This document shows positions 5,714 to 48,700 of a stretch of DNA of 57,885 nt, one piece after another; positions within the stretch are counted from its first letter, which is position 1, and each line of letters begins with the position of its first letter. The notes under the pieces were generated by a model that searched no databases, had not been told where the DNA came from, and saw only the letters and a list, made by a program, of their open reading frames with translations. The translations under genes were made by a program, and so were the position numbers. Source of the stretch: Lachnospiraceae bacterium (GTDB lineage: Bacteria; Bacillota; Clostridia; Lachnospirales; Lachnospiraceae); NCBI GenBank assembly GCA_022781925.1, contig JALESO010000026.1, positions 1 through 57,885 on the forward strand. Reading direction: 5' to 3'.

Positions 5714-8107
5714 CTACATAACACTTAACCGGATCAGCCGGACTTCAAATGGCTCTAGGTGTTCGTACAGACAGATACTTCCATCTTCCTGACGATCCAC
5801 ATAATCAGTCATGCGAAGCGGCTGATTCATTTCATTAATATAAGAAATATCCGAAGATGAGATTCGTGATGCCTTTTTATAATTTTTGCAGAAGCCATAT
5901 GGATTTCCATAATTTTCGTTCAGCACACAGGTTGTTTTCAGATATGTCCGCTCCTTTGCATATTCCAGGCGGATTTCATAGTCCAGATCATGTGCCGGCT
6001 CCAGCATCTCCGGACAGATCACATTCTGGTCCAGTTTTCTCTGACAGTAGGCTTCTGACAGATGCAGATAATCATACAGCAGGATCTGGATTTCCCCGTC
6101 CTCTGATTCCGTGATCAGATAGTTCTCCCCCTTTTGTACAAAACGACTCCCCAGCTTTGCCAGCATCTCATACACATAATAAGAAGGCTTTTTGATAAAA
6201 TCATAAGTAAAGATTCCGCGTTTTCCCTGAAAAGACCCCTGTATCATCTGATCTTCTGAGAGGTTTTCCAGGGGATCCATCACACCAAAAGCAATTCCCG
6301 TCTGCCAGCAGTCCACCATATTTTTTACAATATATGCCGGATAAAACATCGTATCCTGAAGGGCATTGTTCCAGCCCAGATCAAAGTTCCACTCTGCCAC
6401 ATACCAGTCACTCACGTTCCAACCGCAATACTTATTGTTTTTCAGGATCCTCCGGATCACATCATACACCGCATCCCTGCGCTGCATGATACCGGCAGGC
6501 TGCCGTCTTTGAATACTTTCCGGCGTGTCGTCCACGGTATACAGGTTCGTCATGACAAAATCCGGTTCGCAGTGTTGTTTCTGATAAAAAGATGCAAAAC
6601 CGTCCATCCATTCCGGATACAGCAGATTCACCGACATCAGTGCCGACGTTCCCACCTGGAATCGCTCATCGATTGCTTTGATCACCTGCCAGGTGGACAG
6701 ATACAGACGGTAATAATTCTCCCGCTGCAGCGCGGAATAATTAATTCCCGGATTGTCCGGTGAATTCCACACACAGAATTTCCATTTCAGCACCTGACTG
6801 CCGCCATAACGCTCCACCATATGTTTCACCACATGATGCACAAGCAGATCCCACTGTTCCATATCCGTCGGCATATCGGAGATCGAATTGTGCATCATCG
6901 CCTCTTTATTCACATTCTCCACCATGAGAAACGGTACAAAGGACAGTTCCACAAAGGGCGTCATGCCACATTCCACGATAAAGTCAAACAGCTGATCTAC
7001 CCGGTAAAAACTGTAATGCGGTGTTCCATCTCTGTCTTTTACATAAATTTCCATATCATCATGAAACAGTTCGTGAAAATAAATCCCGGTAAAATGCAAT
7101 TTTTCTGTCAGTTCCCGCACCATCTTACGCACCGGATGAAGCAGCAGATAGCTGGCTTTCCGAACAGTCAGAATCCCCCCGGGCTGATCCAGACTGACAA
7201 ATTTCTCCAGATCCACGCCGGTGATCAGCTGCTTTTTCCCCGGATATCTGACCGGATCCACACCGATACGTTCCTGTTCCAGTTCCGCCAGAAATGCTGC
7301 CAGTTCCTGCGCCTCATCTGCCTGCAGCTGTGCAGGTGCTTCCGTCTTCTGCTGTCTGCGGTATTCACTTGGCAGGATCTGATAATATTCCCGAAATTTC
7401 GTACTGAAGGATCTGGCATTTTTAAAACCGCTCTCCTCCGCGATCTGGTCAATGGTTTTCTTGGTATCCCGCAGTTGTCCCGCCGCATGCAGCAGACGGA
7501 TCTCATTGATGTATTTCAGGAAACTGGTGCCAAGCTTCACCCGGAACATTTTGGACACGTAGGAACTGCTGACGTAAAACTGCTCCGCAAGTTCCCCCAG
7601 CGTCAACGCTTCCGTATAGTGCTGTGAAATGTAAAACAGCATGTTCTGCATCATTGGAAACTCTGTGCCCTCCGGCTCCGTCTCCACCCGGAAATCACGC
7701 AGCAGATGCTCCAGAAGCTGATAAGACCACTTCATTTCACGGACATGAGCGCACACATTTTCCTGCTGCCGGATCTCCTGTACGAGATGTAAGATATCAT
7801 AGATCACTTCCTGATACCGCTCTTTGTGAAGTTCCATGGCAGAGTTGCACTCCAGTCTCCCCGGTGCCGTCCCCTGACCGGACATCAGCTTCGTCAGATC
7901 GACCCGGCAGAGCAGACAGCTCCCGGAGACATCGGACAGGCTGAAATACTGAAAAGGCTGAACCATCACGATATCTCCTTTTTTCAGTTCCAGAATCTCT
8001 TTTTTCAAAAGAAGCCCTGCCGTACCGGACAACGGGATCAGAAAGCTGTAATCCGATGACCATTCCGGCTCCTGCTGTCCTTCTTTCCTAACTACAAAAT
8101 GAACCAT
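5714..8107 (-). CDS. AraC-type regulator fused to a GH39-like domain
   Basis: The 797-residue protein has three parts: a cupin-like sensor (about residues 1-75), two AraC-type helix-turn-helix motifs (about 160-250, with LTLGELAEQFYVSSSYVSKM and the family end SFSTKFREYYQILPSEYRR), and a GH39 beta-xylosidase-like TIM barrel with a C-terminal beta domain (about 290-797). In active GH39 enzymes the acid/base is the Glu of a WNEPD-type motif; here it reads VWNSPDNPG, with Ser at about residue 449. The nucleophile motif is kept (VAEWNFDLGW, Glu near 572). I infer that the barrel binds a glycan or oligosaccharide as ligand rather than hydrolysing it. The start chosen is the ATG with GGGGAG seven bases upstream; a GTG five codons earlier has no spacing. 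The neighbouring wall-bound GH3 gene is a plausible target. Confidence 0.85.
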   Translation of the reverse strand: MVHFVVRKEGQQEPEWSSDYSFLIPLSGTAGLLLKKEILELKKGDIVMVQPFQYFSLSDVSGSCLLCRVDLTKLMSGQGTAPGRLECNSAMELHKERYQEVIYDILHLVQEIRQQENVCAHVREMKWSYQLLEHLLRDFRVETEPEGTEFPMMQNMLFYISQHYTEALTLGELAEQFYVSSSYVSKMFRVKLGTSFLKYINEIRLLHAAGQLRDTKKTIDQIAEESGFKNARSFSTKFREYYQILPSEYRRQQKTEAPAQLQADEAQELAAFLAELEQERIGVDPVRYPGKKQLITGVDLEKFVSLDQPGGILTVRKASYLLLHPVRKMVRELTEKLHFTGIYFHELFHDDMEIYVKDRDGTPHYSFYRVDQLFDFIVECGMTPFVELSFVPFLMVENVNKEAMMHNSISDMPTDMEQWDLLVHHVVKHMVERYGGSQVLKWKFCVWNSPDNPGINYSALQRENYYRLYLSTWQVIKAIDERFQVGTSALMSVNLLYPEWMDGFASFYQKQHCEPDFVMTNLYTVDDTPESIQRRQPAGIMQRRDAVYDVIRRILKNNKYCGWNVSDWYVAEWNFDLGWNNALQDTMFYPAYIVKNMVDCWQTGIAFGVMDPLENLSEDQMIQGSFQGKRGIFTYDFIKKPSYYVYEMLAKLGSRFVQKGENYLITESEDGEIQILLYDYLHLSEAYCQRKLDQNVICPEMLEPAHDLDYEIRLEYAKERTYLKTTCVLNENYGNPYGFCKNYKKASRISSSDISYINEMNQPLRMTDYVDRQEDGSICLYEHLEPFEVRLIRLSVM

Positions 8108-8309: not shown

Positions 8310-11300
8310 TTAGAATACTACTTTTCCGTTTACTACATTCCACCAGCCATATTCATTTGCGGCACGGCCTGTATAACCGAAATCGATCTTTCCACCGTTT
8401 ACATACCACCAGCCATACTCGTTTGCTGCAAGTCCGGTGTAAGCAAAGTTGATGCTTCCATTCTGTACATACCACCAGCCGTTCTCATTTGCTACCAGTC
8501 CGGTGTAGTTAAAGTCAACTCTGCCGCCCTGTACCATGAACCATCCGTTTTCATTGGATGCAAGTCCATTGTAGCTGAAGTTGATGCTTCCATTCTGTAC
8601 ATACCACCAGCCATACTCATTTGCGGCAAGTCCGGTGTAGGCAAAGTTGATGGTTCCGTTCTGTACCATCCACCAGCCATACTCATTTGCTACCAGTCTG
8701 GTGTAACCAAAGTCAACCATACCGTTTACTACCATGAACCAGCCGTTCTCGTTTGCTGCAAGTCCGGTATAAGTGAAATCCACTTTTCCGTTCTTTACAT
8801 ACCACCAGCCGTAAGCATTTGGAGCAAGTCCGGTTGCATCTGTGGCAACTTTACCATCGATATAGTAATTCCAGTTTCCATTTTCATCTGCCTCATTTGC
8901 AAGACCATCCGGGATCGTCACACCTGATGTTACAAACTGGATTCCTTCCACTCTCGCATTTGCGTTTTTAAATACCAGATATACGTTGTGGACTCCTGAT
9001 GCGCCGCTCAGATCTGCAGTTGCTGTTGTGTAGCCAAGTTCTGTATAAGTTCCGGCATCCACACCATTTTCAGAAGTACGTGCATTGGTAACAGCTTCTG
9101 TTGCGCCATAGTTTACGGTGCCGATCAGTTTTCCGTCCGGAGCATCCAGACGAAGCTCGATACCGTTCTGAGCCTCTGTGGAAGCTATATTCAGGACAGC
9201 CTGTTTTGCCTGATCCAGATCCACGTTCAGGAGTGCTGTATAGGCACCGGCTTTTTTCGCCATCACTGCAAACATCTCATCGCTGTCTGCTGCTGCCGCC
9301 TCTGCGGTATTTCCTTTGGAATACTCTACATATTTTACATCAGATGCTGTAAAGGAAGAGGACCATACATTCAGTTTTTCTGTTGTATCAGCATTGCTTA
9401 ATGTACTTCCGGATACTTTCACTTTTTTGCTCAGTACGTTCTCACCCTTCAGGTCAGAAGAATGTGCCGCATACAGCTGGTAAGTACCGTTTTCTACCAC
9501 ATACTCACCTGCGTTGACATCCCATACTTCCAGTGCGGAAGCATCTACCTGAATGTCTACTTTTGCAGATTCGCCTGCTTTCAGAGCAACTTTTTCAAAA
9601 CCAACCAGTTTTTTCTGCGGAGCTGTATCACCATAGGAAGAATCCGGGTTGGATGCATAGATTTCCACAACATCAGAAGTATCTACGTTTCCTGTATTTT
9701 TCACCGTTACAGACACATTGATATTGCCATCTGCATCTGCTTTTGCGTTCATACCAGAGTAAGTAAATTCTGAGTAGGACAGACCGTATCCAAACGGATA
9801 AGTCACATCCTCATCATCTGCATACATATAGGTCAGATGTGTCTGCTCCATGTCAGTCTCTGTCATATCCACAGTCACATTGTCGTCGATATCATCCAGT
9901 GTCAGACCTTCTACCAGATCCGGTCCGATATTTGCCATTGCATTTTCCGGAAGGGAGTACGCATCAATAGCCGGGAGCGCATCCTGGGATTTGTACCAGG
10001 TACTTACAAGACGTCCGGTTGGTGCTGCTTCCCCGTAAAGTACGTTTACAAGTGCAGTTGCATCATACTGTCCGCCGAATGCGTTGAACACAATGGCAGA
10101 TACATTTTCATCATTCTGTAATGCTTCTGCTTCCACCGGATATTCTGTATTGATGACCACAATGGTCTTCTTGCCTTCTTTTGCATAGTTTGCTGCTACG
10201 GTAGATACCATATCCATCTGATCCTCACTGAGACTCAGATATTTACGGTCAATGCCCTCGCCGGAAATACCGTTGTACGGCTGTCCGATGACTACGATGG
10301 CATAATCCGTATCTGCTGCCAGTGCTGCGGAATCCGCACCAGCTTCTTTGATCGTTTCCTCTTTGAAGGTATACGGTGTCTTATCCTCTGCGTTTTCAAA
10401 GGCTGCGATACCGGTTGCCAGATTTCCACCGAGAAGGAACGGAAGGTTCGGTCCCTGGATCGGCTGTGCCTCACCGTTTAACTGTACGTTTCCATCCTCT
10501 GTGGTCTGCAGATACCATCCTAACTTGTCACTGAGCGCCCATGTGGTGGAAAAGTCTGTGTCGTTATATTTGTCACCCATTTTCAGGTAATAGCTTCCAT
10601 CCTCATCTGCTGCACGTTTTGACATGAAGGTCGGCATGTTGCTGACTGCAGTTGCCATTCCGGCGCTTGCTTTCATGCTGTAAGAACCATTGTTGGAAAC
10701 TGTCGCATCGTACAATCCCATGGTATTGCCCGGCAGGGAATTGTTTTTCACACCTGCGTTGACCCATTTCTGGTTTGCCAGGGAAAGAAGACTGAAGGCA
10801 TCCTGTCCCCAGTCCGCATACTCAAATAAATATTTGGACTGATCTGCCACCTGTGTTCCCTCTTCCGGATTGGAAATGGTAAGCTGTGCTCCGTTCTCAT
10901 CCTCAGTGGCTGTCACATAACCACCTGCTGTCTTGTATGCAACCACACGGTTTCCGGTGGAATAAGATACATTGTCGCTGCCGATCTGGCTCTGTACTGC
11001 TTCCAGGATATTATCGCCTGCGCCCTGTACATAAGTATTGTATTTTTCATCATTTACATCCAACTCGGAAGAATACTGTCCGTACTGCATGGTTTCTGCC
11101 ATCACACCATAGACACCAGCTTTGGAATCACTGGATAACGGAAGGGTATTGTCTTCATTTTTCAGCAATACCACAGACTCCTCAGCCATCTGAAGCTCTG
11201 TCTCCTGGCTTGTCTGGGAAGAATGATCTGTCTGGATATCCGTATACGGATAGTAACGCGGCTGTCCGTTTTCATCACGCTCATCCAGTGCGCCGGAACG

Positions 11301-16983: not shown

Positions 16984-17241
16984 ATGAGTTATTTATACAA
17001 AACAAAAGGAACCTGTTCCACACTGATTGAAGTAGAACTGGATGGCAACGTAGTAAAAGACGTAAAATTTACCGGCGGATGCAACGGTAACCTGAAAGCA
17101 ATCCCGAAACTGGTCCAGGGACTGACCGTAGAGCAGGTAGAAGAAAAGCTTTCCGGCATCTCATGTTCCGGACGCCCGACTTCCTGCGGTGATCAGCTGG
17201 CAAAAGCCTGTCGTGCCGCACTGGATGCACAGAACGCATAA
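16984..17241 (+). CDS. TSCPD-domain protein (TIGR03905 type)
   Basis: This 85-residue protein is one TSCPD domain, named for the motif of that kind: YKTKGTCSTLIEVELDG, then FTGGCNGNLKAIPKLVQGL and SGRPTSCGDQLAKAC. Conserved cysteines (TC, GGC, SC, TSCGD, KAC) suggest metal or iron-sulfur binding. The same domain occurs at the C-terminus of some vitamin-B12-dependent ribonucleotide reductases; stand-alone forms are common in Clostridia and have no proven role. AAGGAGG lies seven bases before the ATG. A terminator follows 50 bases downstream, so the gene is monocistronic. Confidence 0.9.
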   Translation: MSYLYKTKGTCSTLIEVELDGNVVKDVKFTGGCNGNLKAIPKLVQGLTVEQVEEKLSGISCSGRPTSCGDQLAKACRAALDAQNA

Positions 17242-17425: not shown

Positions 17426-17454
17426 TTGACTTTTTATATATTGTCTGTTATATT
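17426..17454 (+). promoter_or_regulatory. Strong sigma-A promoter of the repeat RNA
   Basis: TTGACT (17426-17431) and TATATT (17449-17454) are separated by exactly 17 bases in very AT-rich DNA. The predicted start point is near 17461, about 43 bases before the first repeat. Confidence 0.8.
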
Positions 17455-17503
17455 GAATACAACAAATAAAGAACTTACAGTTCTTACAAAAACTACAGAA
17501 AGA

Positions 17504-17890
17504 GAGGTACAGACCACCGGAAACATAAGTTAAACTTTAAAAACGATACTAAGCATAGGAGGTACAGTCCAATCTACATTTAAATTTTATCTTCATTTAT
17601 TATAACGAAAGAGGTACGGTTCAATGAAATAATTATTCGTTTTCCATCAATTTAATTTTCGAAAACGAGGTATAGTCCAATGAGATAATTATTCATCTTT
17701 CATCATTTAAATTTTTGAAAACGAGGTACAGTCCAATGAAATAGTTATTTTCTTTTCATAATTTAAATCCTTGAAACGGAGAGCAGACCAATGGACAGGT
17801 AAATGAATTAATTTAATCTTAGAATACATAGTTGGAGGTACAGTCCACCAGAGATTAAAGTAATCAGCAGTTTTTTCAGATACCAGAATT
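17504..17890 (+). repeat. Seven tandem ~56-nt units with GAGGTACAGTCC core
   Basis: Core starts are at 17504, 17559, 17611, 17667, 17723, 17779 and 17835, i.e. steps of 55, 52 and then four times 56. The core is GAGGTACAGTCC; units 1 and 7 continue with ACC, units 2-6 with AAT. Units 3-6 carry an ATG nine or so bases after GAGG, and each ATG meets a stop within two or three codons (ATGAAATAA, ATGAGATAA, ATGAAATAG, ATGGACAGGTAA). Between the cores the units share AT-rich text such as AATTATTC and CATTTAAATTTTTGAAAAC. This is not a CRISPR: the spacers resemble one another and the repeat is short. Confidence 0.85.
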
Positions 17891-18094
17891 GAATACATGA
17901 CAGTTACCATAGTAAATCAGAAAGTCAAGGTTCAGACGGCAGCGTTCAGATATGAATCGGATTTTAAAGGTCATGATTGAATGAGATTTGAAGACGTAGA
18001 AGAAAAAGCTCAAAGGAAAAATTGAATCGACAATTGCATAGTGAGACATATCAGAAGATTAAGGAGGAAAAATCCCTTGGAGAGTATATGTTAT

Positions 18095-18140
18095 TAAGGC
18101 TACATTGATATCTGTAAAAACAGTGTTGATGTAGCCTTTT
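18095..18140 (+). terminator. Terminator of the repeat RNA
   Basis: AAGGCTACAT pairs with ATGTAGCCTT, extended by an imperfect inner stem (CTGT/ACAG) around AAAA, and ends in TTTT. Confidence 0.88.
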
Positions 18141-18154
18141 CCAGTGCCCTGCTA

Positions 18155-18183
18155 TTGACACACTTCTCTCATAGGTGTAATCT
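18155..18183 (+). promoter_or_regulatory. Promoter of degV
   Basis: TTGACA (18155-18160) and TAATCT (18178-18183) with a 17-base spacer, 14 bases after the preceding terminator. The start point would be near 18190. Confidence 0.8.
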
Positions 18184-19140: not shown

Positions 19141-19210
19141 AAAAAAATCCCATATTTTGCATCTCGCAGGCTAAGACGCCTTGCTCCGATGAAAAATATG
19201 GGATTTTTTA
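19141..19210 (+). terminator. Terminator of degV with nested GGCTAAGACGCC hairpin
   Basis: AAAAAATCCCATATTTTGCATC pairs with GATG AAAAATATGGG ATTTTTT. The loop contains GGCTAAGACGCC, a small hairpin of its own, a motif repeated in the terminator at 23231. Confidence 0.85.
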
Positions 19211-19345
19211 TTTACGTTATGACATTATTTTTCAAGTCACAGGCTCTCTCATGCCAGCGCCACGCTCCGATGAAAAATATGCGTTTTTTTATTTACGTTA
19301 CGACAATATTTTTCAAGTCACAGGCTCTCTCATGCCACCACCACA
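19183..19345. repeat. Two tandem copies of an 81-bp intergenic repeat
   Basis: The unit starting GCTCCGATGAAAAATATG occurs at 19183 and 19264 and continues TTTTTATTTACGTTA and TTTTTCAAGTCACAGGC, CTCTCATGCCA; the copies differ at about six positions. The second copy ends before ybjQ. No ORF is present. Confidence 0.85.
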
Positions 19346-23230: not shown

Positions 23231-23302
23231 AGGAGAAGAATTCAGATGAGTGCTTTGGGCTAAGACGCCCTGCATCACTAATCTGAGTTCTTCTCCTTTT
23301 TA
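23231..23302 (+). terminator. Terminator with GGGCTAAGACGCCC loop
   Basis: AGGAGAAGAATTCAGAT pairs with ATCTGAGTTCTTCTCCT and is followed by TTTTTA. Its loop contains GGGCTAAGACGCCCTGC, like the loop of the terminator after degV. Confidence 0.88.
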
Positions 23303-23421
23303 CGTTGTGAACACGCTGTCTCTATTCCGGCCACGAGCCGCTATGCATTACTACTCTACGTTTTCTCCTCTTTTACGTTGTGAACACGCTGTCTCTATTC
23401 CGGCCACGAGCCGCTATGCAT
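23291..23421. repeat. Two tandem copies of a 73-bp intergenic repeat
   Basis: TTTTACGTTGTGAACACGC and TGTCTCTATTCCGGCCACGA, GCCGCTATGCAT occur at 23297 and 23370 with almost no differences. The start, TTTACGTTGTGA, resembles TTTACGTTATGA in the repeats after degV. Confidence 0.88.
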
Positions 23422-37339: not shown

Positions 37340-39775
37340 TTACCGGTTTACTTTTCCGTTGACTACCTGATAGGTGCCGCTGCTGACTTTTACCGTTCCG
37401 GTGTAGCTGAAATCCACCTGACCGTTCCGGATGTACCACCAGCCAAAATCATTCTGTGCGATGCCGTTATAGCCAAAGTTTACTTTTCCGTTGTCAATTC
37501 TCCACCAGCCCATTTCATTGTCAGCCACGGTGCTCTTGAAGATGACCTGACCGCCACGGACGTTCCACCATGCGGTATCTCCGTTTACGGTTCCTTCCAG
37601 CACGCTGTTTTTATCAAAATCAACGGCGCCATCCTGGATGTACCACCAGCCGCCGGCATTCTGCGCCAGTCCCGTATAGGAAAAATCTACTTTTCCATCT
37701 GTAATTTTCCACCAGCCGTTTGCATTTGCGCATACGTCATTGTCAAAAATAACCTGGCTGTTTACCACTTTCCACCAGCCATAGATGCCATTTACAAAAC
37801 CTTCGATCACATCGGTATCGTCAAAATGCACCTGACCGCCACGGCAGTACCACCAGCTGGTTCCATTCTGTCCAAATCCGGTGTAGTTAAAGTCTACCGC
37901 TCCATCCTGGATATACCACCAGCCACCGGCATTCTGTGCCAATCCCGTATAAGAAAAATCTACTTTTCCATTTGTGATCTTCCACCAGCCGTTTGCATTT
38001 GAGCATACATCATTGTCAAAAATAACCTGACTGTTTACCACTTTCCACCAGCCGTAAGTGCCGTTTACGGTTCCTTCGATCACGCCATTGTCATCGAACT
38101 GTACCTTACCGCCGCGGCAGTACCACCAGCTGTCTCCATTCCGGCCAAATCCGTTATAGCTGAAGTCCAGCACACCGTTTAAAATATACCACCAGCCATA
38201 TTCATTGGATGCCAGTCCGGTGTATGTCGTATCAATTTTATCATTTACCTTGTAAACCCATCTGCCATCTGTATCCTGCACCAGACCGGTAACGGTATTA
38301 CTGATGATCTCCGAACGTCCGTAAATCGCCTTGTTAAAATACAGCCTGCGGATCAGTTCACGGATCGTATCCACACCTGCATCTCCGTCCACAGATAATC
38401 CCACATTCTGCTGAAATGCACTGACTGCCGCTTTTGTCGCCGGTCCATAACTGCCATCCAGAGAAAGTCCTGCGTTCTGATACCGATTCAGTGCATTCTG
38501 CAGCCACTGGATACCGATCTTGCTGACAGCCGGTGAAGTGGACGGCATCCGGTAATCCCCTGCATTACAGTAGGTCCAGCCCATGCCGGAAGCATCGGTA
38601 TATGCGTTGATCCTTCTCGTAATGTAACTTTTCCGGTTTGTATCTGACTGGCTGAGCCAACTGTTTCGGTTCGTATATGCATAGCACACAGTGGTAATAT
38701 GGATCTCATTCAGCATCAGATCCCCGAGATTTCCAAAATTCTTTGCATAAGATAAGATCGTGTTCACACCGCCGGAACCGCTCTGATTCTCAACATCTGC
38801 CAGATAAACAACAGCTGCTGCATTGCGGATACCGCGATTGTAAATATCGTTGACATACTCCGTCACATCGGCATTTTCCTGCACATCCTGTGCCAGCTGG
38901 CTCTGTGTAGTGGCCAGCAGTGTGCGCATTTTATTTGCCTCGTCGTCCGTCAGAACACGTTTGCTCCAGCTGCCGTCTCCTAGGATCTCGTTGTACAGCG
39001 CATCTCCCAGGATCGCCTGCGCATTTGCAGCATCTCCGGAAATAATAATCCGCAGAAGGCTTTTGGCACGATCCGCATGCCATTGCATCTTTCCGATGGA
39101 AAGTGCTCCGTTGTCGTTTGCATTGACAGAACTGTAACTGCCCTCATATTTGCGGATCATTGCTTTTGCCGCATTTACGATATCTGTGGTAGCCACACCG
39201 CCAATGGTGGACGGTGCCGCCGCTGTCAGTAAAATGCCGTCATTAGAATAAGAAGCGATCTCCTGCTGCAGTTCGGCAACTTCACTGTCACTCAGAACAT
39301 CCAGATCCGCTTCCTGTGCATCGGCAACATCCTCTTCCATATTCGTTATATTCGTTGACTGCATATCGGAATCTGTGCTGGTCTGAGCGCCCGCATTGCT
39401 GTCATATGTATCTGTATCCGATTCATCTGATGCCGGATCAGAAGCTGCGTCCGATGGATTCTGCGCTTCGGATGGATTGTCGCCTATTGATGTATCCTGG
39501 TGAGAAGACGCTGTACCATTTTCTGTTGTTTGATCAGAACCTGTCTCTGGGGATGTCGCTGCATCTTCATCCGTGCCTTTTTTCTCTGTTGCATTGTCTG
39601 CTGATGTAATGTCTGCTGCAACATCACTGACTGTATCTGCCGCTTTACTCGTATACTGTACCATGGAGTTTTCCGCACCGGAAACTGTCGGTACGGATGC
39701 CGCAAACGCTGCGGAATTGCTGCTTACCGTCAAAGCGATCACAAGCCCGAAAGCTGCCAATTTTTTACGTTTCAT
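37340..39775 (-). CDS. Secreted lysozyme-like protein with wall-binding repeats
   Basis: The 811 residues begin with a signal peptide (MKRKKLAAFGLVIALTVSSN, cleavage after FAA near 26) and a Ser/Thr/Asp-rich linker (about 45-155). A lysozyme/endolysin-like domain follows (about 190-400): IRKYEGSYSSVNANDNGALS, IGKMQWHADRAKSLLR. Then comes a peptidoglycan-binding PG_binding_1 domain (WLQNALNRYQNAGLSLDGSY, GPATKAAVSAFQQNV) and 14 repeats of the GWWYILNGVLDF / GWWKITNGKVDF kind. Within them a block of four to five repeats is present twice. The Glu of EGSYSS is a candidate catalytic residue, by analogy to known muramidases. It probably cleaves peptidoglycan at the surface. AGGAGG lies nine bases before the ATG. 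Confidence 0.85.
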   Translation of the reverse strand: MKRKKLAAFGLVIALTVSSNSAAFAASVPTVSGAENSMVQYTSKAADTVSDVAADITSADNATEKKGTDEDAATSPETGSDQTTENGTASSHQDTSIGDNPSEAQNPSDAASDPASDESDTDTYDSNAGAQTSTDSDMQSTNITNMEEDVADAQEADLDVLSDSEVAELQQEIASYSNDGILLTAAAPSTIGGVATTDIVNAAKAMIRKYEGSYSSVNANDNGALSIGKMQWHADRAKSLLRIIISGDAANAQAILGDALYNEILGDGSWSKRVLTDDEANKMRTLLATTQSQLAQDVQENADVTEYVNDIYNRGIRNAAAVVYLADVENQSGSGGVNTILSYAKNFGNLGDLMLNEIHITTVCYAYTNRNSWLSQSDTNRKSYITRRINAYTDASGMGWTYCNAGDYRMPSTSPAVSKIGIQWLQNALNRYQNAGLSLDGSYGPATKAAVSAFQQNVGLSVDGDAGVDTIRELIRRLYFNKAIYGRSEIISNTVTGLVQDTDGRWVYKVNDKIDTTYTGLASNEYGWWYILNGVLDFSYNGFGRNGDSWWYCRGGKVQFDDNGVIEGTVNGTYGWWKVVNSQVIFDNDVCSNANGWWKITNGKVDFSYTGLAQNAGGWWYIQDGAVDFNYTGFGQNGTSWWYCRGGQVHFDDTDVIEGFVNGIYGWWKVVNSQVIFDNDVCANANGWWKITDGKVDFSYTGLAQNAGGWWYIQDGAVDFDKNSVLEGTVNGDTAWWNVRGGQVIFKSTVADNEMGWWRIDNGKVNFGYNGIAQNDFGWWYIRNGQVDFSYTGTVKVSSGTYQVVNGKVNR

Positions 39776-45750: not shown

Positions 45751-48700
45751 TCAGGAAAAATCTACTTTTCCACCGCGTACATACCAGGTTCCATATTCAT
45801 TGGTTGCAAATCCGTTGTAACTGAAATCTACTTTTCCGGCAGTTACTTTCCACCAGCCGTACGCATTCTGTACCAGTCCATTGTAATTGAAGTCGATGGC
45901 TCCGTTTACTACCATGAACCAACCGTACTCATTGGATGCAAGACCGGTGTAGCTGAAATCTACGACTCCGTTGATCACCATGAACCAGCCATACTCGTTG
46001 GATACCAGTCCGGTGTAGCCAAAGTCTACCGCTCCGTTTACTACCATGAACCAGCCGTATTCATTTGCTGCAAGTCCCGTGTAGTTAAAGTCTACTGCTC
46101 CATTTGTTACTTTGAACCAGCCATATTCGTTTGCTGCAAGTCCGGTGTAACCAAAGTCTACTGCTCCGTTTACTACCATAAACCAGCCATTGTTGTTTGC
46201 CGCAAGTCCGGTATAAGTGTAATCTACTGCATTATCTCTGTATACATACCAGTTACCATCTTCTGCCATCTCGTTTGCCAGTCCGTCTGCATGTGTCGGT
46301 TCCGGATCTGGTGTCGGCTCTGCTTTCTTATCTGCATCCTTTGCTGCTGCAAGCACGCTATCCAGAGATGCCTCCGCTGCTTTCTGTGCTTCTGTCACTT
46401 CTTCTGTCGATGCCGCCGCATTCATTGCTTCCTCTGCTGCTTTTACTGCATCTTCAGCATTTGCTTTGTATGCAGCTTTCTGATCTGCAGTTAAGTTTGC
46501 CAGTTTTTCGATTTCTTCTGTAATAGAAGCTGCTTTGTCGTTTACGGCTTTCACTGCATCAGCTTTGGCTTTCTGCAGTTTTTCTGCTGCCGCTGCATCT
46601 GCAAGGTTCTTCTCGGACAATGCGGTTGCTTCTGTTGCTACTCCATCTAACGCTGTCTTTCCATCTGCAACTGCTTTGTCTACATCTGCGGTTGTTTCTG
46701 CTTCATCGATTTTTGCAATTGCTGCATCTTTTGCTTCATCCGATTTCTTGTTATAAGCTGCAACTTCTTCTTCACTTAAACCTTTCAGAGCCGAAATTAT
46801 TTCTTTCTGATCATTGGTATAATCCGTAATCTCTTTCTCTGCTGCAGTTTTTGCATTTTCCAATGCAAAGTCTCTGATCTCCACATCAAATGTAGCGGTC
46901 TGTCCTGCATATTTTACAGTAACGGTCTGCTTTTCTGCCACTTTGCTGCTGTCAAAACCAGTTATGATTACTTTAGAAAGATCTACAACATCTTCGGTTC
47001 CATCTTCATAAGAAGCTGTAACTGTCATACCGGTTGTATCAAGTGATTCGCCTAGATCATATACCGTTTTTGTCGGTGCATTTACTTTAATTTCAGAAAC
47101 AGCTACTGTCTTTGTACTTACCAGTACCGGAGCCATATTTTCTGCATTTGCATAAGATGCCGCACCTTCTTTACTTACAAAGAAAATACGATTTGCTTTG
47201 TCAACCTGTTTGCCAACCATATTTACAGCCAGTGTGATACTGTCCTGTCCGGCTGCTTTTGCTGCTGCAACTAATGATGTAACATCTGCTGTTGCTACTG
47301 TACCATTTGGTGTACTGATCTGTGCCGGATCATTGCTTATAATCGTTCCAAGGTTAAATTCTTCTGAAGTAATTACTCCATTTGCATCCAAAATTGCCGG
47401 TTTATTTTTCCAGTTCAGCGTATTTTCTGTCCAGTCTGTATTCTCTGCCATGGCAATCTGAAGCTGTGCATCCAAATTAGCAGCTTCACTGTAACGTACA
47501 CCCAGTAATGTCAGCTGTAATTTTACACGGTCAACCTGAGTAAGATCAATCTGTGACACATCAAATTTCAGATATGTAACTTTATTATCACTTCCACCTG
47601 CAGTTCCCAAGGTTCCTTTAGAATCTGTTCCATAGGAAGTCCGCAGGAAATTCTTTGCGCCAAAGTCTGCTGTCTGATCTCCACTCCAGCTGCCTGCAAA
47701 TGTATCCTGTGATACAACGGTTCTGGATACTTCGGAATCTTTTCCGATAACCTTTTTCACGGTTGCACGGATGACAGGAGCAGCTTCCTTCTCTGCATCC
47801 AGTTTTGCTGCGCCTTCGGTACTTGCAAATGCCAGTTCATAACCGTTTTCATCACATACTGCCAGAGAAAGTGTATTTTCGGAATCACCCATATTTTTGA
47901 TAAGTTCTGTCACATCTACGGTTGCCTTTGTTCCATCATAGTTTGAAGCCGTAATACCAACACTGTTTTTCACTTCGCTGTTTTTATCAACCTGAAATTC
48001 TTCTGAGTAAGCAACTTTTTCTGTATCCCACTCCGGATGTGTATTCCAGGTTGCTGTCTTCGCATCCCATTCTCCGGATACCGGAATCACCATCAAACGA
48101 TCTGTTCCAGTTGAACTGCTGCTACGTCGGTTGATCAATGTCAGCTCCAGTTCTGCTTTCTCCAGATTCTTAAGATCCTTTTTTAGATCTGATACATCAA
48201 ATTTTAAAACACTGATTTTTCCATCACTTCCATCGGAAGTATTTGTTATCTTTTCACCGAATAATCCATATTTTTCCTGATCCGTCTTTGCACCTGTCAT
48301 TCGAAGGACACGCAGATACTCATTATCAGAATAGGTATTATTCTTTTCGCCTTTCCAGCCTGCCAGATAGGTATCCTCTGCAGCTGTAATATTTACCTGC
48401 TTTACCTCACCGGCTTCAATATTGATGGTAACAGTTTTCTGTGTGGAAGCACCATACTCATCCAATGCCTTAAACGTAATTTCTTTCCGTCCACTGTCAC
48501 TGTCAGATGTTTCCCATGTAAACGTGCCCGTTTCAGCATCAAAGGACGCTCCTTTCGGAAGTGCGCTGACAACCGATAAGGTCACGTTATGTTCTTCCGG
48601 ATCCGTTGCTTTTACCTGGAAAGAAACCGTTTCTCCTGCCTTCACATTGAATGGTTCATTATCCAGATCTTCAAATACCGGTGCCGCATTTTTCTTGATA

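Follow-up and report, generated by a model that had tools for sequence, protein, structure and literature searches.

Tandem extended Shine-Dalgarno units in a candidate family of ribosome-engaging RNAs from Clostridia and viral contigs

Introduction

RNA genes that carry many copies of a motif resembling a ribosome-binding site (RBS) are known from the CsrB and RsmZ sponges, and in type III toxin-antitoxin systems a toxin gene stands beside an RNA repeat array. Known cases of ribosome sequestration in bacteria rely mainly on proteins such as hibernation factors.

Several described systems come close. The bar minigenes of phage lambda consist of a Shine-Dalgarno (SD) sequence, a start codon, a single sense codon and a stop codon (PMC8012679), and the STAB-SD of the cry3A mRNA is an SD-like sequence that binds the 30S subunit through the 3' end of 16S rRNA without directing initiation (PMC4113751). 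Extended, start-proximal SD pairing is described as the normal mode in S. aureus (PMC13009471). A survey of 50 genomes for uORF leader candidates reported conserved in-frame start and stop codons; in one candidate, the stop lies within a hairpin that precedes a terminator (PMC11109978). The intergenic TAACTGA repeats of Beggiatoaceae are short direct repeats at ribosome-site positions for which a post-transcriptional role is suspected (PMC4679880).

Here we analyze a tandem array from a Lachnospiraceae genome that the earlier note, made from the letters of the sequence, had proposed, as one of two readings, to be an RNA that holds or titrates ribosomes, and compare it with these systems.

Results

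Architecture of the array

The window, a stretch of 57,885 nt (contig JALESO010000026.1 of assembly GCA_022781925.1), contains a presumed RNA gene of ∼680 nt in which seven units lie between a predicted promoter and a terminator (Table 1). The array is placed between a small gene (16984–17241) and an ORF starting at 18155 that we take to be DegV-like. The protein encoded by the small upstream gene is 95% identical to its copy in Eubacterium ramulus ATCC 29099, which places the genome close to this species. Just past the DegV-like gene is an 81-bp tandem repeat in two copies (19183–19344, 92% matches), and the window contains a further 73-bp repeat in two copies (23271–23421, 92% matches) as well as tandem repeats at 8334–8834, 37629–38167 and 45899–46230; those at 8334–8834 encode the C end of a 1429-aa ORF and, by eye, have the look of cell-wall-binding repeats.

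Table 1. Features of the presumed RNA gene in the window.
Feature	Position	Strand	Basis or remark
Promoter TTGACT-17-TATATT, TG before the -10	17426–17454	+	10/12 against consensus; aligned copies in E. ramulus and G012
5' leader ACAACAAATAAAGAAC..., presumed transcript start	17461–17503	+	conserved in three-way alignment
Unit 1: GAGGTACAGACCA CCG GAA ACA TAA	17504–17528	+	repeat search
Unit 2: GAGGTACAGTCCA ATC TAC ATT TAA	17559–17583	+	repeat search
Unit 3: GAGGTACGGTTCA ATG AAA TAA	17611–17632	+	repeat search, alignment
Unit 4: GAGGTATAGTCCA ATG AGA TAA	17667–17688	+	repeat search
Unit 5: GAGGTACAGTCCA ATG AAA TAG	17723–17744	+	repeat search
Unit 6, degenerate: GGAGAGCAGACCA ATG GAC AGG TAA	17778–17802	+	repeat search
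Unit 7: GAGGTACAGTCCA CCA GAG ATT AAA; exception, without early in-frame stop	17835–17859	+	repeat search
Middle region, no recognized units	17862–18060	+	conserved in E. ramulus and G012
Terminal unit: AAGGAGG-AAAAATCCC-TTG GAG AGT ATA TGT TAT TAA	18061–18097	+	stop adjoins terminator stem
Terminator hairpin GGCTACATTGAT...GTTGATGTAGCC followed by TTTT	18098–18140	+	fold; alignment with relatives breaks down after it

The earlier description of seven repeat copies at a near-constant step was reproduced by a direct-repeat search, which located all seven with steps of 55, 52, 56, 56, 55 and 57 nt. The repeat string given for them is less uniform than it had seemed: exact GAGGTACAGTCCAATG occurs in unit 5 only, and unit 6 (GGAGAGCAGACCAATG) is degenerate. 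Searching for GAGGTACAGWCCA with at most two mismatches gave nine matches in the window, six of them in the array; across 100 shuffles the mean was 1.55, and none had more than 5. The units follow a general pattern AGGUAYRGWCCN-codon-...-stop, repeated at steps of 52–57 nt in the window. The short ATG frames that had been noticed in units 3 to 6 are all present; the start position of units 1, 2 and 7 is CCG, ATC and CCA, respectively, and the fourth in-frame codon is still TAA in units 1 and 2. The six-codon frame reported downstream of AAGGAGG was likewise recovered (18077–18097), and an identical frame is called in two other loci (L105 and L106).

Both flanks claimed for the array can be seen in the sequence, as a promoter-like site with 10 of 12 consensus positions and as a hairpin that folds, but promoter sites of this kind are not above chance in the region: four sites with at least 9/12 were found in the array region against a shuffle mean of 4.4. 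Support for the window promoter comes from its conservation in relatives and from the promoters of other arrays. The U tract of the terminator comprises only four T, and the element is absent from a mechanical terminator scan.

Constraint on the reading frame

Units were indexed from the A of AGGUA (index 0), which puts the start position at index 12. Across 151 distinct units, index 12 is ATG in 47, CCA in 27, AAG in 24, CCG in 12, ATC in 11, TTG in 9, AAA in 8, ACA in 7 and other codons in 6. The first in-frame stop falls at index 21 in 92 of the 151 units and at index 18 in 30, and the other two frames are free of stops over this stretch in 56 and 54 units. All three stop codons occur.

Removal of similar units left 116, and the downstream frame was evaluated at positions outside those fixed by the search pattern (index 0–10). 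A stop within three codons is found in 30 of 37 ATG units, as opposed to 5 and 1 in frames +1 and +2 and to a mean of 7.5 (maximum 15) in 400 shuffles. The corresponding figure for TTG units is 5 of 9 (shuffle mean 1.2, maximum 5, so that shuffles can reach the observed value). The constraint extends to the 70 units with neither ATG nor TTG at the start position, 55 of which have the stop (7 and 4 in frames +1 and +2; shuffle mean 12.5, maximum 23). It also extends to 39 units that fail the strict pattern and were picked solely on index -10 to +11, where the first in-frame stop lies at 18, 21, 24 or 27 in 31. Two observations count against ribosome capture: the five strict units of L137 and L176 have no AUG and no UUG, and 21 of the 116 units have a weaker SD, AAGG.

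The choice of stop codon differs between the two classes, with 22 TAA and 13 other stops in start units and 48 TAA and 7 others in non-start units (Fisher p 0.009). Based on this difference in TAA preference, the UAA of non-start units may belong to a motif that serves another role; translation leaves the in-frame UAA of units lacking a start codon unexplained.

Two other explanations of the unit were considered and rejected. A hairpin that sequesters the start codon, hinted at by AUGAAAU...AUUUCAU in a second copy from the same genome (see below), is not general, as the mean pairing of the start codon is 0.48 in 48 start units versus 0.46 in shuffles and 0.20 versus 0.24 in 77 other units; helices of at least 6 bp that begin at the start codon show a small excess (17% of start units, 9% shuffled). 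The consensus fold of 107 units contains two GG/CC pairs only and no covariation. Translation of the motif itself (AGG UAY RGW CCN, Arg-Tyr-x-Pro) can also be set aside, since for 128 of the 151 units the preceding 40 nt contain no start codon in frame, and L251 and L254 have UAA inside the motif in that frame. By eye, a UACCYC element that could pair with the GAGGUA of the next unit is located ∼25 nt upstream of some units in L151, L165, L161, L132 and L144.

Complementarity to the 16S rRNA tail

The 3' tail of 16S rRNA, GGCTGGATCACCTCCTTTCT, was read in 10 rRNA copies of two genomes (G361 and G274) but could not be located in the assembly that contains the window. In the best predicted duplex of most units, GAGGU pairs with ACCUC and (G)GUCCA with UGGAUC, and two or three bases of the unit are bulged between them. 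Extended pairing of this type is predicted for 53 of 54 strict units, for 48% of spacer-shuffled versions and for 31% of 409 mechanically chosen gene RBSs. The mean duplex energies are -16.1, -13.8 and -11.3 kcal/mol, respectively, and a looser pairing criterion gives 70/70 units against 80% of shuffles. The (A/T)CC element is present in 94% of the 54 units and in 1.7% of the 409 gene RBSs, a difference that is partly by construction, as is core conservation in general, given that the strict pattern fixes index 0–10 in part. Pairing with U would call for a purine at index 11, and 110 of 116 units have A or G there.

The terminal units provide the fairest test of pairing, because strict units owe part of their core to the search pattern itself. 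Among the 25 terminal frames described below, the leaders of 18 do not match the strict pattern (12 of them have (A/T)CC before the start), and 16 of these 18 are predicted to form the extended duplex, versus 37% when shuffled. A hand-picked set of 18 terminal leaders, most of which end in (A/T)CC, gave 72% against 21%. Pairing with the 16S tail need not block initiation, considering that extended SD pairing is reported as normal in S. aureus (PMC13009471). A possible pairing of upstream UCUAAGAAAG with the 3' extension of immature 16S rRNA was discarded, as one position is mismatched by eye.

The terminal frame

A terminator was called in 47 arrays, and in 25 of them a short frame ends between -6 and +4 nt of the stem base, which occurs in 5% of shuffles. 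The test called for an SD and at least three codons, with the upstream 60 nt shuffled. The set includes near-duplicates and several weak, probably wrong terminator calls, and the terminator called for the window is not its true one. Related arrays keep the peptide MDSIV through codon changes (GAC AGC or GAT AGT, TAA or TAG), and other lineages have other peptides. What is kept therefore seems, from these sequences, to be the act of translation rather than a particular peptide.

Copies in the same genome and in relatives

The same genome harbors a second copy (contig C37, 38192–38380; positions 1501–1700 of locus L001) with promoter TTGACA-17-TACTAT, two units, the terminal frame MKLQEIH and a terminator. 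The repeat, whose absence from relatives would have spoken against the earlier reading, is present at the homologous place in E. ramulus (L024) and in genome G012. In a three-way alignment, identity is high between promoter and terminator and patchy before the promoter, and the alignment breaks down beyond the terminator. The G012 array is shorter by the length of one unit (∼56 nt), unit 3 ends with TAA in the window and with TAG in both relatives, and the TTG frame of the terminal unit is kept, with a different spacer in G012. No Rfam family accounts for the locus: the window returned 0 Rfam matches, and a permissive search with the array (E up to 5) gave three, all far below gathering scores.

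Within the genus, a strict two-unit pattern matched 18 pairs in 6 of 20 genomes, and its reversed control gave 0 matches. A looser pattern matched 41 of 397 family genomes (78 pairs); some of these must be chance matches, since the reversed pattern matched 14 genomes (21 pairs, counted by hand). The unit set omits the matches in G322, G332 and G434, which look coding by eye, and does not cover G366. Units were also found at 11 of 80 named loci around the upstream gene, including records of Eubacterium ramulus, Roseburia and Lachnospiraceae. A sequence profile built from 107 units (R1) matched 28 of 391 genomes of the class; among the 16 same-family genomes listed, eight have a match, the window's own genome counted. 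In a sample of the phylum, 3 of 299 genomes had a match; besides the window's genome, these are a member of the same family and a genome whose weak match sits in an open frame.

The arrays contain from one to about eight units and sit between long ORFs; the upstream gene of the window is common to some, and elsewhere the neighbors are different. A promoter with 10–12 of 12 consensus positions is found upstream of 54 of 60 arrays and in 6% of shuffled regions; this set includes near-duplicates, and the promoter region of L172 was wrongly cut in the shuffled-region comparison. Leader-like starts CAACAAAAGAA are also present in several other arrays. The downstream ORFs vary and some are on the opposite strand (for example in L001, L117 and L132), and a consistent same-strand downstream gene, the feature of a leader or uORF attenuator, was not found across the arrays; many phage copies, by contrast, precede one gene type. 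By eye, no recurrent toxin candidate was seen among the neighboring ORFs.

A class-level version in four other families

Ten loci from four other families (f29, f41, f42 and f74) share an RNA of ∼400–560 nt (L228, L230, L233, L234, L236, L238, L239, L240, L245 and L254). They come from 20 matched genomes outside the family; in addition, L243 is a gene RBS, and nine others are outside that count. The RNA has one copy of the repeated unit, or two in the case of L239, and in 10/10 loci the unit has AUG followed in frame by a stop within three codons. Conserved blocks include CACGACGGUG and GUUCUCNUUAGAGAA, and a conserved, partly structured middle (CACGACGGUG, GUUCUC..GAGAA) lies between the unit and the terminal frame. 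The terminal frame has nine or ten codons, mostly encodes MLDIKSEQK or a close variant, and its stop lies within the terminator stem. In the consensus fold, 13 of 36 pairs have changes on both sides, 10 of these 13 in the terminator. Twelve class-level loci had no match over the RNA in Rfam. In L228, a Gut-1 RNA (RF01706, 2103–2177) is found downstream of the class-level RNA, after a tRNA.

A compact version in viral contigs

An exact 16-mer scan of IMG/VR returned 24 contigs, roughly the number that we estimate for chance. Seven of these 24 carry a compact RNA composed of a consensus promoter, an AUG GGC UAA unit, a second unit encoding MD(T/N/S)VA and a terminator, and patterns that demand the stop yielded further contigs. 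In total, the mini version was identified in 20 of 38 viral contigs examined, several of them near-identical, each with a perfect TTGACA-17-TATAAT whose -35 lies ∼60 nt ahead of the unit core. These 20 contigs hold 21 mini RNA genes; in L318, two different copies are located on the reverse strand at 5891 and 7325, ∼1.4 kb apart. The terminal unit was found by pattern in 20 of the 21, and L272 has one with a changed SD; by eye, the stop of the phage version lies ∼15–20 nt before the stem. As for the 18 remaining contigs, the site is inside a long ORF in 14, three lack a promoter, and L328 stands apart, with a unit of the window's type plus a terminal frame. Nine viral loci had no match over the RNA in Rfam, and an annotated phage collection contained no match to the phage mini RNA.

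Discussion

The modules, the constraint on the reading frame, the complementarity to 16S rRNA, the wide conservation and the phage copies are features of the sequences themselves. Our best reading, to which we give an even chance, is that the array belongs to a family outside Rfam in which an RNA made of ribosome-engaging modules would capture ribosomes. Conservation from promoter to terminator, in-frame stops, 16S complementarity and phage copies lend strong indirect support to the ribosome-holding RNA of the earlier note, although its term 'start-stop' fits only part of the units.

From these features we infer transcription, ribosome binding, titration and an effect on the cell, along the following lines. 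The repeated module A would act as an extended SD, in which GAGGU pairs with the anti-SD and, across a bulge of two or three nt, GWCCA pairs with UGGAUC; AUG units would add one or two sense codons and a stop, and the other units would do without a start codon. Module B, the last one, would be a short frame with its own SD, ending at the terminator stem in roughly every second array for which a terminator was called. Several 30S subunits could then be bound simultaneously and independently of a start codon, AUG units would additionally allow 70S formation with near-immediate termination (abortive starts), and the terminal frame would place one further ribosome near the 3' end. As the outcome, ribosomes would be parked or cycled, and either free 30S would be lowered for other messages, or the RNA would be shielded by its ribosome cover, or both. 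The more specific proposal of ribosome-sink RNAs that are widespread in Clostridia and phages, whose tandem extended-SD modules pair with most of the 16S 3' tail and park 30S and whose start-stop frames cycle 70S, is more tentative, and we put it somewhat below even.

One alternative is a stability device, in which 5'-proximal SD-like units hold 30S subunits that act as roadblocks against 5'–3' decay, in the manner of multiple STAB-SDs, and protect the terminal frame or the body of the RNA; titration of ribosomes would then not be the purpose. An SD that binds 30S without initiation would suit the units lacking a start codon, there is the Firmicute precedent of STAB-SD (PMC4113751), and the class-level version, a longer RNA with some structure, has its single unit (L239 has two) at the 5' end. 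However, the second copy and the phage version consist almost wholly of modules and leave no body to protect, and a roadblock does not require AUG-stop frames; we regard this alternative as unlikely.

Somewhat less probable still is a sponge that follows the logic of CsrB and RsmZ, with an unknown protein that binds RNA at sites overlapping RBSs and represses translation. The earlier note had allowed for repeated protein-binding sites, and this possibility is kept alive by the tandem RBS-like motif on a presumed RNA gene, by a core conserved beyond a plain SD (partly by construction), by two genes elsewhere that have the motif as RBS (L201 in genome G034, and L243), and by the exact 16-mer preceding several phage ORFs. 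The ORF at 1514 of L243 looks by eye like an iron alcohol dehydrogenase, and that at 1500 of L201 (reverse) has 76 codons. The possibility is weakened in that no mRNA target with the motif at its RBS was found in this genome, where 8/8 single full-motif copies (AGGTAYRGWCC) lie inside mechanically listed ORFs. A second pattern gave two more places, L204, also in an ORF, and one on contig C67. Moreover, CsrA (PF02599) was not found in 18 of 31 RNA-carrying genomes, including that of the window (91% complete), GGA occurs near the core in only 74 of 116 units with no conserved hairpin, and 16S pairing accounts for most of the core.

Abortive translation that causes peptidyl-tRNA drop-off and tRNA depletion, as with the lambda bar minigenes, would explain the AUG-codon-stop frames with SD, which are found in phage contigs too, and has those minigenes as a precedent. 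We consider it improbable, given that the AUA second codon of the minigenes (PMC8012679) occurs in 0/37 ATG units and that ATG and TTG are both absent from the start position of 70 of 116 units. A decayed coding repeat or repeated DNA sites without any role as RNA would account for tandem direct repeats in an AT-rich gap but are very improbable, as the steps of 52–57 nt are mostly not multiples of three, the units carry in-frame stops, promoter, leader, units and terminator are conserved jointly, and upstream promoters exceed those in shuffles.

If the reading of ribosome-engaging modules is true, these arrays would represent an RNA-based way to act on the ribosome, unlike sequestration by proteins, and, should the RNAs indeed be ribosome sinks, a cell or an infecting phage would gain RNA control over the free ribosome pool. 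The arrays are found in gut bacteria and phage contigs, and their modularity, from one to about eight units, makes both dose and mechanism testable.

We recognized no similar array in the open-access subset of the literature, which does not prove absence from print. The parts of the array have precedents, but a conserved presumed RNA gene of tandem start-stop or start-less extended SD units combined with a terminal micro-frame matches no tested family and may represent an as yet unrecorded way of controlling ribosomes. To our knowledge, no extended 16S pairing has been described for the lambda bar minigenes. The arrays differ from CsrB and RsmZ in that GGA is not borne on hairpins, in the match of the motif to the 16S tail, and in that this genome yielded no CsrA. 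The uORF leaders of the 50-genome survey stand ahead of a constant downstream gene that they are believed to regulate (PMC11109978), whereas the downstream genes here differ, and the TAACTGA repeats have little SD character and stand mostly ahead of real ORFs (PMC4679880), unlike the present arrays. S. aureus shares with the units an SD pairing that is extended toward the start codon (PMC13009471); there it serves ordinary genes, and here it is repeated on an RNA without one. The likeness to STAB-SD lies in the predicted pairing with the 16S 3' end and in the position of the first window unit, 50 nt after the -10 of the predicted promoter, but STAB-SD lies within the 5' UTR of a protein-coding message (PMC4113751), whereas the arrays have several units, no large ORF and many start-stop frames. 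Finally, the order SD, start, one or two sense codons and stop is common to the lambda bar minigenes (PMC8012679) and to 30 of 37 ATG units, and is seen in window units 3 to 6, and both kinds of element are found in phages; units that have no start codon depart from this order, and the passage of that paper on the minigenes describes neither tandem arrays nor stand-alone RNA genes.
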